Shown here one piece after another: positions 11,333 to 23,922 of a stretch of 64,000 nt of DNA. Both the position numbers and the translations under genes were made by a program. Under the pieces are notes generated by a model, which worked only from the letters and a program-made list of their open reading frames with translations, did no database searches and was not told the origin of the DNA. Source of the stretch: Chytriomyces cf. hyalinus JEL632 (lineage: Eukaryota > Chytridiomycota > Chytridiomycetes > Chytridiales > Chytriomycetaceae); the NCBI GenBank assembly GCA_025435555.1, contig JAIWWG010000032.1, forward strand, positions 248,001 through 312,000. Reading direction: 5' to 3'. The stretch's first letter is position 1. Each line of letters starts with the position of its first letter.

Positions 11333-13403
11333 CTACATCGCACTCCATCCGTGGTTGACCAACGATGATGGACTGGTGCCGTTCTGGCAGTTGGCAGCGT
11401 TGAACTCATCAATTCTCATCTTCAGCAACGCGTGCTTCGAAGTGACCATGTCGCAGCTCATGTTCATGGCTTCGGCGTATTCGCATGTAATTGGGTCTGG
11501 GTAGGCAAGGTGGCAAGGGTGGCTTCCAGCCACAACTTCTTGTGGTGCTTCTGGGTTGGGAACATATTCAATCACGGGCATGGCTGGGAAGAATCGCTTG
11601 AGTGGACCGCCGGGCAATTGTGCCGTCACTGAGGACAAGTACACAGCAACAATCTCGTATTCGGCAGGGACTTCAATCGTTTTGTGGAAGTTGGTGTACG
11701 AAATGGTGGTGCTATTGTCTGCGTTTCGTGTCTCAACGTACAAATGATTGGGTTTCGCTGCTGGCTCAGTTGCAACTGCAGTTGCAGTTGCAGTTGCAGT
11801 GAGAGTTCCAGTTGCGGTGCCAGTTCTTGAAGCAAACTCAGTTTCTGTTGCAGCCTCAGCGTCTGTTGTAGTCTCAGCGTCCGAAAAGCTTTCCAACTCG
11901 TCACGACCGAAAACAACAATATCTCCGCCTGCCGTTGGAATGTCCTGAATGGACACTTGCCCGTCATCTGAAGCACCACCAACTTTCCAGACCACCTTTT
12001 TCTTTTCAATCATTCTGACAAGGGCAACATTGAGCCAGTTGTCATCAAGAGAGTTGGCTGCAACTGTTGGACGAACTGGAACAGAAGTGCGACCACTAGT
12101 TTCGGTAGGGCGGTCAGTGTTTGTGTCGCTGGGGTCTCTTGACGTGGTAGGTTTTGGCACAGCACTTGTGGTCGTGAAGGCCGGGCATGATACTGCTTGG
12201 GGAGTGACGTCTCCCTTGGATTGGGAGTATCTGTAGCAGAGAGTGTCTCCTTCGGACTCCAACAGGTCGGCAACGATGAATGGGTAAGAGTTGACGTAAA
12301 GATCCTTTGAAGCTTGGTCGCTGCCGTGGGACATTGGATCGTCAGCCGACTTCAGGCGACCTTCGTAGTCGTACTTGAAGGCCTGACACTGCTGCTGCCA
12401 TCGCCACCAGTACTTGTCAACGAATCCGTGGTGCACTATTATCAATAATTAGTTTTGTCACAGCCACTGATTAAAGAAGGAGACTCACGGTAAAAGAGCG
12501 GGTCATTTGGACTGATGCTTGGGTTACTCAAGTCACCTCCGTCTCCACCAATCGTAACGTGCCCAGATGCGTGGTAGTTACCGTTGTCCAAGTTGTAACC
12601 AGTGAACTCCGTGTAAGTGTTTGGCGCAAGTCCCCGTGTGATCTCAGTTGCATCCGGCAGCACAGCACCGCTTCTCGCATTACGACGCAGGCAAGTCAAG
12701 TCACCCGTCGTGATGCCTCTAGAACCCTCAGGATCGTCGGCAACCTTGTACTTGCCTTTGGCAAAGGCTCCTGTCAGCACACATCCATCCTTATCCTTGC
12801 TGGTGGCAGATCCAAAGTATTGGTCCGAGAAGATGTCGGACGTCCACCAGTTCTACGCAGAGAGGAAAAGCGTGTTCAGTTGGAAAGGCATGATGAGACA
12901 GTTTTGAAAAAAAGCTTTGTGTCACCTGCGACATTGCCGACCAATCAAAGTAAGGGACTCCCATACTCGATGGCCACTCGCCCGTCGAGATGAGAGCATT
13001 CTCAAACTGCCACATCATTGCACGATGGTAAGGATAGAACTGGGCGTTTCCCTATTGTTGTGGGAGAGAGAAGGAGATGTGAGACAAGGCATCCAGCCAC
13101 AACCTCAAACTTACGTGGGCCCAGTATGCATTGCGGGAGTGGGTCTGCACAAAGTCATGCCAAGCCATGCGGGTAGGGTCATCGTACTGACCGCTGACTG
13201 GTCTGCTAGCAAGAGCAACGGTGGCTCTGACGTCTGTTGATGATGGTGTGAGAAAGGGGAAAGCCCAAAGGACACCGTCACTCACAAGCAGCCTTCTGGT
13301 CCGGGGACATGTCGTGCCACTCCATACGAATGCGTGGGTTCGAGCAAGCGGCGCTGACGAGACCGGCTGTAGCGGCCACTGCCAAGAGTGTCTGCATGAT
13401 CAT
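11333..13403 (-). CDS. Secreted tyrosinase, paralogue 1
   Basis: Five exons (13286-13403, 13115-13233, 12926-13051, 12489-12852, 11333-12435) give 609 residues. A hydrophobic signal peptide ends near residue 19 (VSAA). The CuA site has His71 (THSRN), His79 (WAHGN) and His88 (PYHRAM). The CuB site has His215 and His219 (NYHASGH) and His244/245 (LHHGFVDK). This is the di-copper centre that oxidises phenols and catechols to quinones, the first step of melanin formation. The long tail is rich in Ser, Thr, Ala and Val and may be cleaved off or glycosylated. It is the first of three head-to-tail paralogues on this strand, next to ABC copy A. A Met two codons downstream (13397) is an equally good start. 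Confidence 0.9.
11769..11800. repeat. Hexanucleotide repeat (gttgca)n in tyrosinase 1
   Basis: Several gttgca units lie in the coding sequence of tyrosinase 1. On the minus strand they encode an alternating Thr/Ala/Val run in the low-complexity tail. The tract is in frame and likely to vary in length. Confidence 0.7.
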
Positions 13404-13567: not shown

Positions 13568-15642
13568 TTAAAACAGACTTCCATCCCGGCGCGTGTAATT
13601 TTGGTTCAGCATCGACGACGGGCTGATCACCCCGTTACAGTTGGCGGCATTGTACGCATCAATCTTACTCTTGACGCTGTTGTGGATGCTAATGACTCTC
13701 GGGTAATTCATCCCCATGTGTGTCACCCACGCTTCCTGCGGCTCAGGTGGGTACGCAAGGTAACAAGGGTCTTGACCAATCTCGACATCGGTAGGAGCTT
13801 CTGGGTTGGGCTCGTACGGTGCAATGTCCATGGAGACAAAGAATCGGTGTGGCTTTCCGTCTGGGCCGATGGTTCCGACGTGCGAGTTGAAGACGTATTT
13901 GATGGTGTGGTTTGCTGGGATCTCGATGGTGTAGTTGGCGTTTGTGAAGGAAACTGTCACGCTGCCGTCCTCGTTCATTGTGTCGTTGTATGTGTTGGGG
14001 ACTGGAAGCGCTGTCACGTTTTCAAAGGAAATGGTTGCGTTCAAATTGACGCTGGCCGAGACAGTATCTGTCAGATTACTATTCAGAGTTGAGTTGATCA
14101 GGTTGGTGATGTTCAGAACCGTGGACGAGTTGCTCGAGCCTGCCAAAACAATGGTTGTGATGTTGCTTGGCGCCGTTAAATTGTCCACCAAATCAGCTGA
14201 AGTAGAGTTGTCACGTCCCATGATAATAACATCCTCGCTGCCTGCATCTCCCGAGTCTGTTGTCCCTGTTGGCACGGTAGGTTTCACAGTCCCAGTTCCA
14301 ACAACAGGGTTCGAACCAAACCCCTTCAACGGCAACGGAGCAACCATCCCAATCAGCAGTTTCTGAATCCACAAATCACTTGCATCATTCTGAGCGGCAT
14401 TCAAACTAGTAGTAGGGGTAGTCGTACTCTTTGCGACCTCAGGTTCCGGGGTGAAGGCCGGGCAAGTTGCCGATGGTGCGGCAAGATCACCAGCACTTTT
14501 AGAGTACGTGTAGCAGAGGGAGTTTCCCTGAGTGTTGAGCATTTGAGAAGCAGTGAATGGCCAAGAGTCAAGGCTCAATTTTGAAGAAGCTGTTCGTGTT
14601 CCATCGCTGATGGGATCGTCCGCGCGGGAGAGAACACCGTCGTAATCTTGTTTGTAGAATGGGCAAATGTTTTGCCATCTCCACCAGTACTTGTCGACGA
14701 ATCCATGGTGCACTAGATGTTGCGTTTGCAATTGTTAGCGTTTTTTTTGGGGGGGGTCAACAATAAGTGAACTTACACCAAAACACCGGGTCGTTGGGCG
14801 AAACTGACGGATTCGACATATCCGAGGTACCGCCGCCTCCAAGAACTCCGTGACCGTCTGCGTGGTAGTTCGTCTGAAACCAAAATTGAAACATCAGATA
14901 AACAACGTCACAACACCAGAGAAAAAAAAAAAAAGCAAACCTCATCATAGTAGTGATTCGGGTCCTGACTCGTAAACTGAAGATAACTGTTGGCATTCAA
15001 CGAACTCGTGATGGTGGTAGCATCCGTCAACGCCGCTGGTGGCGCATTTCGGCGCAGACAAGTCAAATCTCCGGAAGTGACCCCACGATGATTATCCAAA
15101 TCTGCAGCAACATTATAAACTCCACGTCTAAATGCTCCATTTGTAACACATGAATCTGGATGTGTGCTCGTAGCGGACCCAAAGTACTGGTCACTGAAAA
15201 TGTCGGATGTCCACCAGTTTTGGGACATTGCGGACCAGTCAAAGTAGGGTACACCCGTGCTGGATGGCCACAGGCCCGTGGAAATGATGGCTTCTTCAAA
15301 TTGCCACATCATTGCGCGGTGGTAAGGATAAAACTGGGCGTTTCCCTGTTTATGAAACTCATGTTAGCTACGAAGGGAAAAGTCAGAGAAGTATTTGCGT
15401 TTTACGTGAGCCCAGAATGCGTTGCGGGAGTGAGTCTGTACAAAGTCGTGCCAGGACATGGTAGATGGATCTGACGTCTGTCCACTGACGGGTCTTTTTG
15501 CAAGGGCAGCGCAAGCCGAGACAAAGCTTGATTTCTGAGAGGAGGAAAGCTGGTGCCATTCACTGCGGACACGCGGGTTGCTGCAGGCTGCATCAACGGC
15601 AAGGCCTAGGGAGAAAATGACTGTGAGGCTGACGAGCTTCAT
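13568..15642 (-). CDS. Secreted tyrosinase, paralogue 2
   Basis: Four exons (15406-15642, 14941-15345, 14777-14873, 13568-14712) give 627 residues. It starts with a signal peptide (MKLVSLTV...VDAA). CuA ligands are His71, His79 and His88. CuB ligands are His218 and His222 (NYHADGH) and His248/249 (LHHGFVDK). It lacks the first and third introns of paralogue 1, but keeps the intron that splits WAH from GNA. The tail has many Asn-X-Ser/Thr sites and Asn/Thr/Ser-rich stretches, fitting a glycosylated secreted or wall protein. Its role is phenol oxidation; the natural substrate cannot be read from the sequence. Confidence 0.9.
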
Positions 15643-15876: not shown

Positions 15877-17950
15877 TTAGCACGACGGACTCGTGCCGCT
15901 TTCCATGTTAAATTTATCAATGGCCATCATTTGCAAATTGTACACGTTATTGTACATGGCAACGTCCATATTCATACCCGCCAGGTACGACTCGGGTACT
16001 TTTTGAGGGTACTTGAGCCAGCAGCGACCTGGGTCGTTGGACAAGTCTGTAAAGTTGGCAGGTTGGCTGTATTCCAAGGGTTCCAGTGGCGAAAAGAATC
16101 GCTTCTTTTTGTACGTCTTTTTGTCGATGGCAGCGACAGAGCGTGAAAATACCAAGAAGACTTCATGTGTGGCAGGAATTTGGACAGTGTGGTTGAAATG
16201 CGTGTACGATACAAGAGTGCTTCCGTCCGGCAGTTGCGTTTCAATGTATCCGTCTTCAACTTTACTCGCAACTTCTTTGGAAGCCACGGCCGAAGATGTG
16301 GCAACGATAGTTGCGGTCTGTGTCGCAAGGACTGTTCCGGTTGCTGAGACAGGTACTGTACCAGCGCCAGCATCCTGGTCAGTTGTATTATCTCTCCCCA
16401 TAATGATGATGGCCCCACTGTCTCCACCCGCAGCAGCGTCAATTCCAGCAGATCCGGCAGCGCTTGTTCCAGCGTTAAACGAACCCAAGCTAGGCGTTTT
16501 CACCAACTTTACAAACATGGAACGCAGCCACATATCCTCTACTCCTCCTTTTGCTGATCCGGTTGTACTCGCAGAAGAAGATGCAGTTCCAGTTTGTGCC
16601 GTAAGCGGTTTCACAGCAGGGCATGCAGGAGGGGAGCTTGCCGGCAAGTCGCCCTTTGAAGGTCCGTAGGTGTAGCATAGAGTATCTCCTTGTACATCCA
16701 TCATTTGCTGTACAGTGAATGGCCAAGAATCCAAGTTTGCGTATGGACTGCTGTCTGTTAGTCCAGTTGCATCTTGCCGTTTGAGCACGCCTGTGTAGTC
16801 GAATTTGAATTGCGGGCATTGACTTTGCCATCTGAACCAGTACTTGTCGACAAAGCCGTGGTGCACTGGGATTTTTGTCGATCATTAGCCTACCTCGGTC
16901 TTCAATAATTCGGAGAAAGCAAAAACTTTACGCCAAAAGATTGGATCGTTGGGAGATACACTCGCATCTGCGAGGTCACTTCCTGGACCACCGATAGTCC
17001 CATGTCCCGAAGCATGGTAGTTGCTCTATTCGAAAAGAGAGTCAGTGCTTTTCGTGGATGGGGTCCAAACTTGAAGCATACCAAGTCGTAATACGTGTTG
17101 GGGTCCTGGCAAGTAAACTGCAAGTAACTGCCCGCAGACAAGGCGTCCTGCATGGATGTTGCGTCGGGTAAAACGTACTGGCCCCCGTTTCGGCGAAGAC
17201 AAGTGAGATCGCCCGTGGTAATCTTTCGATTTTTCAACGCATCCGGAGCAACAGAGTACACGCCCTTTGCAAATGCGCCATCGACCACACAAATGTCCGG
17301 GTCTGGAGATGATGCGGATCCAAAGTATGAAGGGCTGAAGACATCGGAAGTCCACCAGTTCTGTTCAATCTCATCGTATCAGTGCGTCTGTGGGGGGATG
17401 AGAGCGATGAACAGTGTATAAACCTGAGACACGGCCGACCAGTCCCAGTAAGGAATTCCTTTGCTGGCGGGCCATAATCCAGTTGAGATGATGGCCTTCT
17501 CAAACTGCCAAACCATGGCGCGGTGGTATGGATAGAACTGGGCGTTTCCCTGTAGAGCCACGGCAGGTTAGTTAATCGTAATGAATCACAGCGAACAGTA
17601 CGAACATGAGACCAGAAGGCATTCTCGGAGTGGCTGTGAGTTACAGCGAATGAGCACAAGTGAGACACTGAGAAACAACTGGACTCACGTTACGACAAAG
17701 TCATGCCAGGACATGATGGAAGGGTCTGCATACTGGTTGCTGAGTGGTCTCTTTGCCAGTGCAGCACACGCAGCCACGACTGGGGCCAATGGAATGAGGG
17801 GTGAGTATGAAGGATGATGGGGTGAACGGCGGGGCACTCACAGGCAGACTTGTCGCCTGAAGACAGCGTGTTCCACTCTTGGCGCACGCGCGGGTTCGTG
17901 CACTGGGCCAGAGCATGGCCCGCGACAACGATCAAAGCGAGCAGCTTCAT
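15877..17950 (-). CDS. Secreted tyrosinase, paralogue 3
   Basis: Seven exons (17842-17950, 17689-17779, 17606-17633, 17424-17549, 17082-17360, 16932-17025, 15877-16865) give 571 residues. The third exon is only 28 nt and carries HA1 and HA2 (HSENAFWSH). CuA ligands are His68, His76 and His85. CuB ligands are His215, His219 and His244/245. A signal peptide precedes CTNPRVR. The tail is Ala/Thr-rich and ends SGTSPSC. A helicase relic ends only about 34 bp upstream of the start, so the promoter may contain foreign sequence. An ATG three codons upstream (17959) is an alternative start. Confidence 0.9.
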
Positions 17951-21932: not shown

Positions 21933-23922
21933 ATGAGGATCGTGCTTACCGTGTCTGCCGCTCTTGCTTCTGCGACGATGGTTGTTTCAGCTGCCTGCAA
22001 CAACCCGCTCGTCAGGAGAGAATGGGAGCAGCTGTCCAGTGCAGAGAAAACTGGATGTGAGGCATCCCGACTCAAACTCAACTCATACCTTCTCACTACC
22101 TCAACTTCAACAGATGTCAATGCAGTAGTGGAGCTGACCAAGCGTCCCATCTCCGGAAATCTGCAAGACCCAAACACCATTTCGTACTACGACTTTGTTG
22201 CTACCCATGCTGCCAACGCCTTCTGGGCTCATGGAAACGCGCAGTTTTATCCATATGTAAGCTTGCGGTTCTTGCTCCTTTACCAGCCAGTCAGACTAAC
22301 TTGAGCTCTTTTACCAGCATGTATGTCAAGTACTTTGCCAGTCGTCGACTGGCGTCAAACTAAACTCCTCAATTTTTTTCAGCGAGCAATGATGTTCCAG
22401 TGGGAGAGAGCATTAAATTCCGTCGGATGGAAGGGTGGAGCAGTGTATTGGGACTGGCCAGCATCACCGAACCAAGTGAGTTTTTTTTTTGTTGCAGTCA
22501 GACATCCATCAAGTTATTCATGTGTCTCCCTCTAATCTCAGCAATGGTGGAAATCAAGCGTATGGGATTACTTTGGCGCCGTCGATAGCAATGACCCAGA
22601 TAACTGTGTCTTGGACGGTGCATTTGCGAAAGGAAAGTATGCAGTTTCCATGGATTCGAACTCGAGAAATCTTCGCAGACTCTCAGGGGACCAAACGTGT
22701 CTCAGACGATGTGGTCTCGTTGGAGCTGCAGTCACTGATGCAACAACAATTACAAACCCGTTGAGAACTGCCAAAAGCTACATGGCGTTTCATGGTGGAG
22801 ACACAAGTAACTACCATGCCGTTGGTGGGTTGTTCACTTAAGTTTGAGTGGTGTGGTAGTGATATTAAATGCGCGAAATGTTTAGGTCACGTAACCATCG
22901 GAGGAAGTGCATGTGACTTTGGAAACCCTTCATACTCTCCAAACGACCCGGTGTTTTTCCGTGAGTGCTCTGAAGTTGCAACATCCCTGTCCGAATCTAA
23001 TCTTAATTTCCTATTAATGCTCGCAGTACATCACGGTCTGGTTGACAAAGTTTGGTGGAGGTGGCAGCAGTCATGCCCCGCATATGTCTTGGACTACGAA
23101 GGCACTTTGGCCAGAGCAGATGACCCGATTTCAGATGGAAAATCAAACGTAGCATACGCGACTCTGAACATTGACTCTTGGAAATGGTGGACCGTCGCAG
23201 ACATGCTAGACACACAGGGAGACACGCTCTGTTACACTTACTCTCAGTCCGCAGGGGACCTTACTATTCCGACCCCTTCTGGTTGCGATGTTTCCACAAA
23301 GACTACTAAAACATCCGCCACAACTTCCACCTCTGATTCTGCTGTTCAGTCTTCATCCCCATCCACTACGAAATCAAGTTCAACAACTGCCTCCCCAGGA
23401 CCCGTCTCGAAAAACAATCAGACGGAAGTCTTCAGCGACGGGTGGATGAACTTGCTCCTGCAATCCCTCGTAGAAGTTCCAACATTTAAATTCAACGTTC
23501 CCACAACCGGTCAAACGAAACGAGATGACACCATCAACTACACATCTGGATACACTACAGAGGTGCAACCAGACAGCAGCACACTCGTAACCATCTACCC
23601 ATCTCTACGTGAAGTCTATGTTCCTGGGGGTTACGAAATCAGTGTTGTGTATGAATCGCGGGTGCAAGCCATGAATCTTCTCACGAAGCGGCCTGAAATG
23701 TTTTTCAGACTTGTTGAGCCGATTCCGTATGTGAAGTTAGACTGTGCGCCTGAGAATGTTGTGCCAGGCAGTCATCCATGTTACCTGGCGAAACCGAACC
23801 GGGTTTCGATTGAATATGCGCGCAAGATGAAGATGAATCTTGTGCAAGTGTCCAACAACGACAATATTGTTGCCATGCAGATTGACAAGCACAACTGCGA
23901 ATGCGATCAAAAAGCGCGATGA
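21933..23922 (+). CDS. Secreted tyrosinase, paralogue 4, with a 3-nt microexon
   Basis: Seven exons (21933-22056, 22114-22256, 22318-22320, 22383-22475, 22542-22824, 22886-22960, 23027-23922) give 538 residues. A signal peptide precedes AACNNP. CuA is His73 (THAAN), His81 (WAHGN) and His90 (PYHRAM). His90 is encoded entirely by a three-base exon between two phase-0 introns of 61 and 62 nt. CuB is His213, His217 and His242/243 (LHHGLVDK). It lacks the intron after WAH that the other three paralogues have. The tail is Ser/Thr-rich with several N-glycosylation sites and ends in a Cys-containing segment. It lies just after ABC copy B in the mirrored half of the cluster and is the most diverged of the four copies. 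Confidence 0.88.
22318..22320 (+). other. 3-nt microexon (CAT) encoding a copper-ligand His
   Basis: CAT is preceded by ...ttttaccag and followed by gtatgt. Both flanking introns have CTAA-type branch points (gactaac; aactaaa). Splicing it in restores PYHRAM, exactly as in the three paralogues. Skipping it leaves the frame open but removes the third CuA histidine. Confidence 0.82.

Follow-up and report, generated by a model that had tools for sequence, protein, structure and literature searches.

A three-nucleotide exon very probably encodes a copper ligand of a tyrosinase in a fungal nuclear gene

Analysis of a genomic stretch of 64,000 nucleotides (here called the window), which spans 248001-312000 of contig C169 in a genome of 37.8 Mb and 242 contigs, revealed a tyrosinase gene, here named T4, in which the trinucleotide CAT is very probably a real exon of its own. 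This 3-nt exon would encode His90, the third histidine of the CuA site. We base this reading on an intact gene product, a combination of splice sites that is unique among those around CAT, a low rate of chance occurrence and a conserved core in a truncated copy of the gene on another contig, C176. That the third CuA ligand comes from an exon of its own, 3 nt long, had originally been predicted for this locus, and our reading of the sequence agrees with it; the rest of the tyrosinase is intact. The layout of T4 and of its three paralogues in the window, T1 to T3, is given in Table 1. The genome contains the ciliary family IFT46 and numerous matches to chitin synthase, from which we take the host to be a zoosporic fungus, probably a chytrid; the chitin synthase part of this argument is weaker, because that family was also present in 4 of 14 control genomes.

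Table 1. Positions of T4, its exons and the introns next to CAT, and its paralogues in the window
Feature	Position	Strand	Description
T4 (tyrosinase gene)	21933-23922	+	Seven exons, six GT-AG introns, 538 codons, no internal stop
T4 exon 1	21933..22056	+	Start codon; N-terminal hydrophobic stretch, signal-peptide-like (by eye)
T4 exon 2	22114..22256	+	CuA His73 and His81; last residues ...QFYPY
T4 intron A	22257..22317	+	61 nt, GTAAGC...CAG, branch motif CTAAC at 22296-22300
T4 3-nt exon CAT	22318..22320	+	His90, third CuA ligand by homology
T4 intron B	22321..22382	+	62 nt, GTATGT...CAG, branch motif CTAAA at 22360-22364
T4 exon 4	22383..22475	+	RAMMFQWE...SPNQ
T4 exon 5	22542..22824	+	CuB His213
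T4 exon 6	22886..22960	+	CuB His217
T4 exon 7	23027..23922	+	CuB His242/243, C-terminal extension, stop codon
T3 paralogue	15877..17950	-	Intron 17605-17550 directly after second CuA His; gene ends by eye
T3 28-nt exon	17633-17606	-	First and second CuA His
T2 paralogue	13568..15642	-	Intron 15405-15346 directly after second CuA His; gene ends by eye
T1 paralogue	11333..13403	-	Intron 13114-13052 directly after second CuA His; ends by eye, start uncertain by two codons

With CAT included, T4 encodes an intact tyrosinase of 538 residues, in which PF00264 (tyrosinase) is the sole Pfam family at E ≤ 0.001, with 115.7 bits against a curated cut-off of 22.6. The protein shows the tyrosinase pattern of H2-x8-H3 in CuA and H-x3-H followed by HH in CuB, and all six copper histidines (73, 81, 90, 213, 217 and 242/243), whose roles as ligands we assume, are in place and do not vary among T1 to T4. 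Skipping of CAT would keep the frame and remove a copper ligand, as had been anticipated, and the PF00264 score falls to 104.4 bits for a query that was additionally cut after residue 329, outside the domain match. The T4 product is probably a secreted tyrosinase, and enzyme activity would be expected of it.

The histidine encoded by CAT lies within WAHGNAQFYPYHRAM. Its spacing to the second CuA histidine, H81-x8-H90, is invariant across T1 to T4, as is the motif FYPYHRAM, and this region of T4 aligns to HG.A.F..WHR of hemocyanins with known structure. From this alignment and by analogy with type-3 copper proteins, we take His90 to be the third CuA ligand. Loss of this histidine is possible in the wider family, since a divergent tyrosinase-domain protein (locus L026, at about 2441 on the plus strand) lacks it, with FLPWIS in place of the FLPWHR of several relatives. 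In the close clade, the copy L030 reads HCAM where the others read HRAM, and two TGA triplets lie inside its stronger match.

The splice signals around CAT are those of two ordinary introns. Both introns are in phase 0, with complete GT and AG ends on each side of CAT, branch motifs on both sides and normal sizes; coordinates, lengths and phase were exactly as originally predicted, and CTAA-type motifs (CTAAC and CTAAA) are present, with the branch-point A lying 18 nt (intron A) and 19 nt (intron B) from the end of the intron. For comparison, 46 curated introns of the family range from 51 to 83 nt, with a median of 66 nt. This set was drawn, with an upper limit of 100 nt, from 69 raw introns with conserved flanks, from which we dropped eight of L011 (for which the aligner had used the wrong strand), two more above 100 nt (L022 and L024), ten locus/length entries from poorly aligned stretches, introns A and B themselves and one duplicate. 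Donor A is outscored by 18 of the curated introns and donor B by 22, and the corresponding numbers for acceptors A and B are 18 and 21. The branch motifs are not decisive, because a CTRAH motif occurs in 28/46 curated introns (a looser motif in 41/46).

To restore the conserved motif, CAT has to be spliced in exactly. The GT donors and AG acceptors around CAT can be paired in 427 combinations, 112 of which are in frame, and a single one restores H-x8-H-RAMM. The original prediction held that the histidine is present only if CAT is a whole exon. This applies to HRAMM, which follows in one combination only, but not to the histidine itself, as 15 of the 112 in-frame combinations (exon start 22318) place it directly after QFYPY. 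In the other 14, RAMM is lost or residues are added behind the histidine, and they require donors 22325, 22330, 22341, 22344 or 22354 or acceptors within exon 4; the donors inside intron B (the 22325-22354 group) score at most 0.12, compared with 6.83 for donor 22321.

The rate at which such an arrangement arises by chance was estimated from 200,000 random 126-nt introns with the real ends kept. AG-CAY-GT with both resulting introns of at least 45 nt was found in 1084 of them, in 91 when the splice scores also had to exceed the 10th percentile of real introns, and in 3 when CTRAH branch motifs on both sides were added. Furthermore, when the T1, T2 and T3 proteins were aligned to the T4 DNA with our own spliced dynamic-programming program, the single-residue H exon was picked in 15/15 alignments (three queries at five intron penalties), with scores that favor CAT partly by construction (a His match versus a gap). 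The aligner placed an internal exon of 30 nt or less in 17 of its 33 rows, of which five are trusted (T3, T4, L018, L028 and L037) and 12, some with exons of 3 nt, were judged to be misalignments, mostly at poorly aligned loci. Since it yields spurious tiny exons in poor alignments, its uniform choice is not proof by itself.

The copy on contig C176 adds a view of the history of the exon. C176 carries rearranged pieces homologous to the window, with 87.6% over 2685 columns adjoining T4, 90.7% over 2225 and 88.8% over 1580 columns for pieces from elsewhere in the window; further pieces are shorter or less similar, the lowest value being 70.4%. The T4 remnant among them (L037) matches from 22271, inside intron A, and continues through AG-CAT-GTATGT, intron B and most of exon 4, after which it skips to the end of the gene. 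Both CTAA motifs are kept and the intron bodies have diverged. Across branch region A (9 positions), CAT (3), donor B (6) and branch region B (10), T4 and the remnant are identical at 28/28 positions, whereas the intron bodies, counted from 22271, have 39 identical, 13 different and 8 gapped columns. For disjoint regions of our own choice, this contrast has a Fisher P of 8e-5 if gaps are included and of 0.002 for substitutions alone. Both acceptors together have 16 identical and 3 different positions and 5 gaps, and P becomes 0.015 if they are counted as signals. In exon 4, there are 4 differences at 81 aligned sites and one gap; three of the four are synonymous by eye, which suggests that the C176 copy was probably still constrained at the protein level during a large part of its divergence. 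In the remnant, donor A is missing and the acceptor of intron B is poor (CTTAAG), so that it speaks for history and not for present function. The simplest account would be that the 3-nt exon is older than the split between T4 and the C176 copy and that both copies were used for some time.

In T1 to T3 and in 13 other close-clade loci, the codon for the third CuA histidine lies inside an uninterrupted exon, and T1 to T3 have instead a phase-0 intron nine codons upstream that is absent from T4, a difference correctly noted in the original prediction. This intron, directly after the second CuA histidine, is found in eight genes (T1 to T3 and five further loci), and eight close relatives have no intron in the CuA stretch. 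On a tree of 28 rows, which has no outgroup root, leaves out L010, L011, L026, L033 and L037 and holds no row for L013, T4 forms a third lineage. A single change on this tree accounts for the upstream intron, which is restricted to the clade of eight genes that includes T1 to T3; T4 therefore probably never had it, its absence being ancestral and a gain more plausible than a loss. With T4 as the query, 29 alignments were obtained in 28/29 loci above the score limit (the strand was wrong for L011, no alignment came from L013 and L033 was barely above the limit), and introns flank the third-His codon on both sides in one of these alignments, that of the C176 remnant. In a distant subfamily (three L011 genes, L013 and L033), a donor lies 2 nt after the third-His codon in 5/5 genes, with the full join in 4/5. 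This offset implies that introns beside the codon had more than one origin or were shifted by 2 nt, and their recurrence makes a second intron on the other side of the T4 codon less odd.

A micro-exon of 28 nt that holds the first and second CuA histidines was seen in T3 and its relatives L018 and L028. Among 17 close-clade genes, 13 distinct intron positions were counted over T4 codons 21-262, and 8 of them are at most 2 codons away from a copper-ligand histidine, a zone that covers 14% of codons (binomial P = 1e-4, with an author-chosen radius, some doubtful positions and genes that are not independent). As for where introns A and B came from, the idea that intron B was copied from intron A was unconvincing, as their global alignment score of 38 was reached by 4/52 other introns against A and 1/52 against B. 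A mobile introner was rejected as well, the 126-nt DNA query having no match apart from itself and the C176 remnant (E ≤ 10, in a search that skips very common words), and so was sliding of an intron from the upstream site between H2 and G, an intron confined to the T1-T3 clade.

Taken together, we consider it likely that CAT is constitutively included and that two short introns are removed one after the other, giving a probably secreted tyrosinase. We infer the course of splicing, the order of removal and the route of origin as follows. The spliceosome would take each intron of ~60 nt as a unit (intron definition). As the splice sites flanking CAT are only 3 nt apart and could hardly be assembled on together, their simultaneous use is unlikely, and the introns would be removed in sequence. 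Either order would leave the second intron with intact ends, and CAT would end up joined on both sides, so that the spliced product would carry His90 and a complete type-3 copper center. The arrangement may have arisen by intron gain on both sides of the codon, in a stretch where the family repeatedly gained introns. A similar stepwise model is suggested for the 1-nt exon of Arabidopsis APC11 (PMC4674806).

The original prediction also offered skipping of CAT as a possible activity switch, in which inclusion would give active enzyme, removal of one 126-nt intron would give a protein one residue shorter without His90, and the ratio of the two would be controlled. If this were true, splicing would add or remove only the catalytic metal ligand and would determine how much protein is copper-loaded enzyme and how much is an apo-protein that differs in nothing else. 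A switch is conceivable because skipping stays in frame and meets no stop; the 3-nt exons of Drosophila TnT (PMC8042270) and hth (PMC7392893) and of human RPS24 (PMC11162997) are described as alternative, and a fungal micro-exon switch is reported for Xlr2 (PMC11121469). However, nothing observed here points to it: both introns are of modal size, their splice sites rank in the middle of the curated set and are not weak, and inclusion of the exon is what one would expect under intron definition. Furthermore, a 126-nt intron would exceed all 46 curated introns (longest 83 nt in a set limited to 100 nt), and the raw introns above 100 nt (10/69) all come from stretches of L011, L022 and L024 judged to be misaligned. 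We therefore did not adopt the switch, which we regard as unlikely.

It also seems quite improbable that CAT is not an exon and that a single 126-nt intron leaves T4 as a copper-defective, non-catalytic tyrosinase-like protein. The frame would stay open in this case and a family member without the histidine, L026, exists, but a residue-restoring AG-CAY-GT would turn up by chance in roughly one random intron in 185 under the loosest condition and one in 67,000 under the strictest, its core is conserved in the C176 remnant, and the five other copper histidines of T4 are intact. The truncation of the C176 counterpart would fit the idea that T4 itself is unexpressed, an assembly error or a decaying gene, and that the exon has no product; an open frame along all 538 codons, six introns with GT and AG ends and the occurrence of the same core on another contig make this very unlikely. 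Hardly any weight can be given to other splice sites that still encode the histidine, namely, acceptor 22305, which would create a 15-nt exon with the four extra residues LFYQ before it, or donor 22330, which would create a 12-nt exon with VCQ after it. Both are in frame, but acceptor 22305 is a GAG only 5 nt past the CTAAC motif, donor 22330 scores 0.12 compared with 6.83 for 22321, and T1 to T4 all keep FYPYHRAM unchanged.

Constitutive inclusion of CAT, the reading we prefer, would place T4 among the genes with ultra-short exons. The CYP621A P450 nuclear genes of Fusarium contain a single-nucleotide exon in 20 orthologues, confirmed by reads in two species (PMC12940212). As in T4, an ultra-short exon in a fungal nuclear gene is flanked by a pair of short introns (together 139 nt in F. 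graminearum) and restores one residue of a conserved motif, as inferred from comparison with an intronless relative; unlike T4, the exon is 1 nt and not a whole codon, the residue belongs to the PKG motif and is not a metal ligand, and the host is an ascomycete. The exon of Arabidopsis APC11 is likewise ultra-short and constitutive, but it has 1 nt, belongs to a plant and is shown experimentally (PMC4674806). In animals, 3-nt exons are recorded for Drosophila TnT and mouse Ncam (PMC8042270), Drosophila hth (PMC7392893) and human RPS24 (PMC11162997). They share with T4 the three nucleotides and a frame that is kept with or without the exon; in contrast, those of TnT, hth and RPS24 are alternative, and we saw no description of the encoded residues as metal ligands. 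Fungal stwintrons resemble T4 in their two abutting introns and consecutive reactions, but there the outer intron has one of its splice signals interrupted by the inner one (PMC6616335). The T4 introns each have their own complete ends and are separated by CAT, and we rejected a stwintron on these grounds.

Other fungal reports mention 3-bp exons when discussing mitochondrial genomes (PMC12308204), exons as short as 6 bp in P450 genes of Phanerochaete (PMC1184071) and a "3-bp exon 2" in Ganoderma that forms just the beginning of a longer exon (PMC8379801). Among the open-access literature matches listed, we found neither a fungal 3-nt nuclear exon nor an exon made solely of a metal-ligand codon. 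As far as our searches reach, a fungal nuclear gene in which a 3-nt exon consists of nothing but the codon for a catalytic metal ligand would be new.

If our reading is correct, T4 is a nuclear gene with an exon of 3 nt, and its host is a zoosporic fungus that probably belongs to an early-diverging lineage. When the exon is missed, the annotated T4 enzyme looks dead, and a layout this extreme is easily overlooked by annotation; a gene caller with a minimum exon length would be expected to report T4 without its copper ligand. T4 would furthermore provide a clean test of whether intron definition alone splices an exon that is too short for both of its sites to be occupied together.
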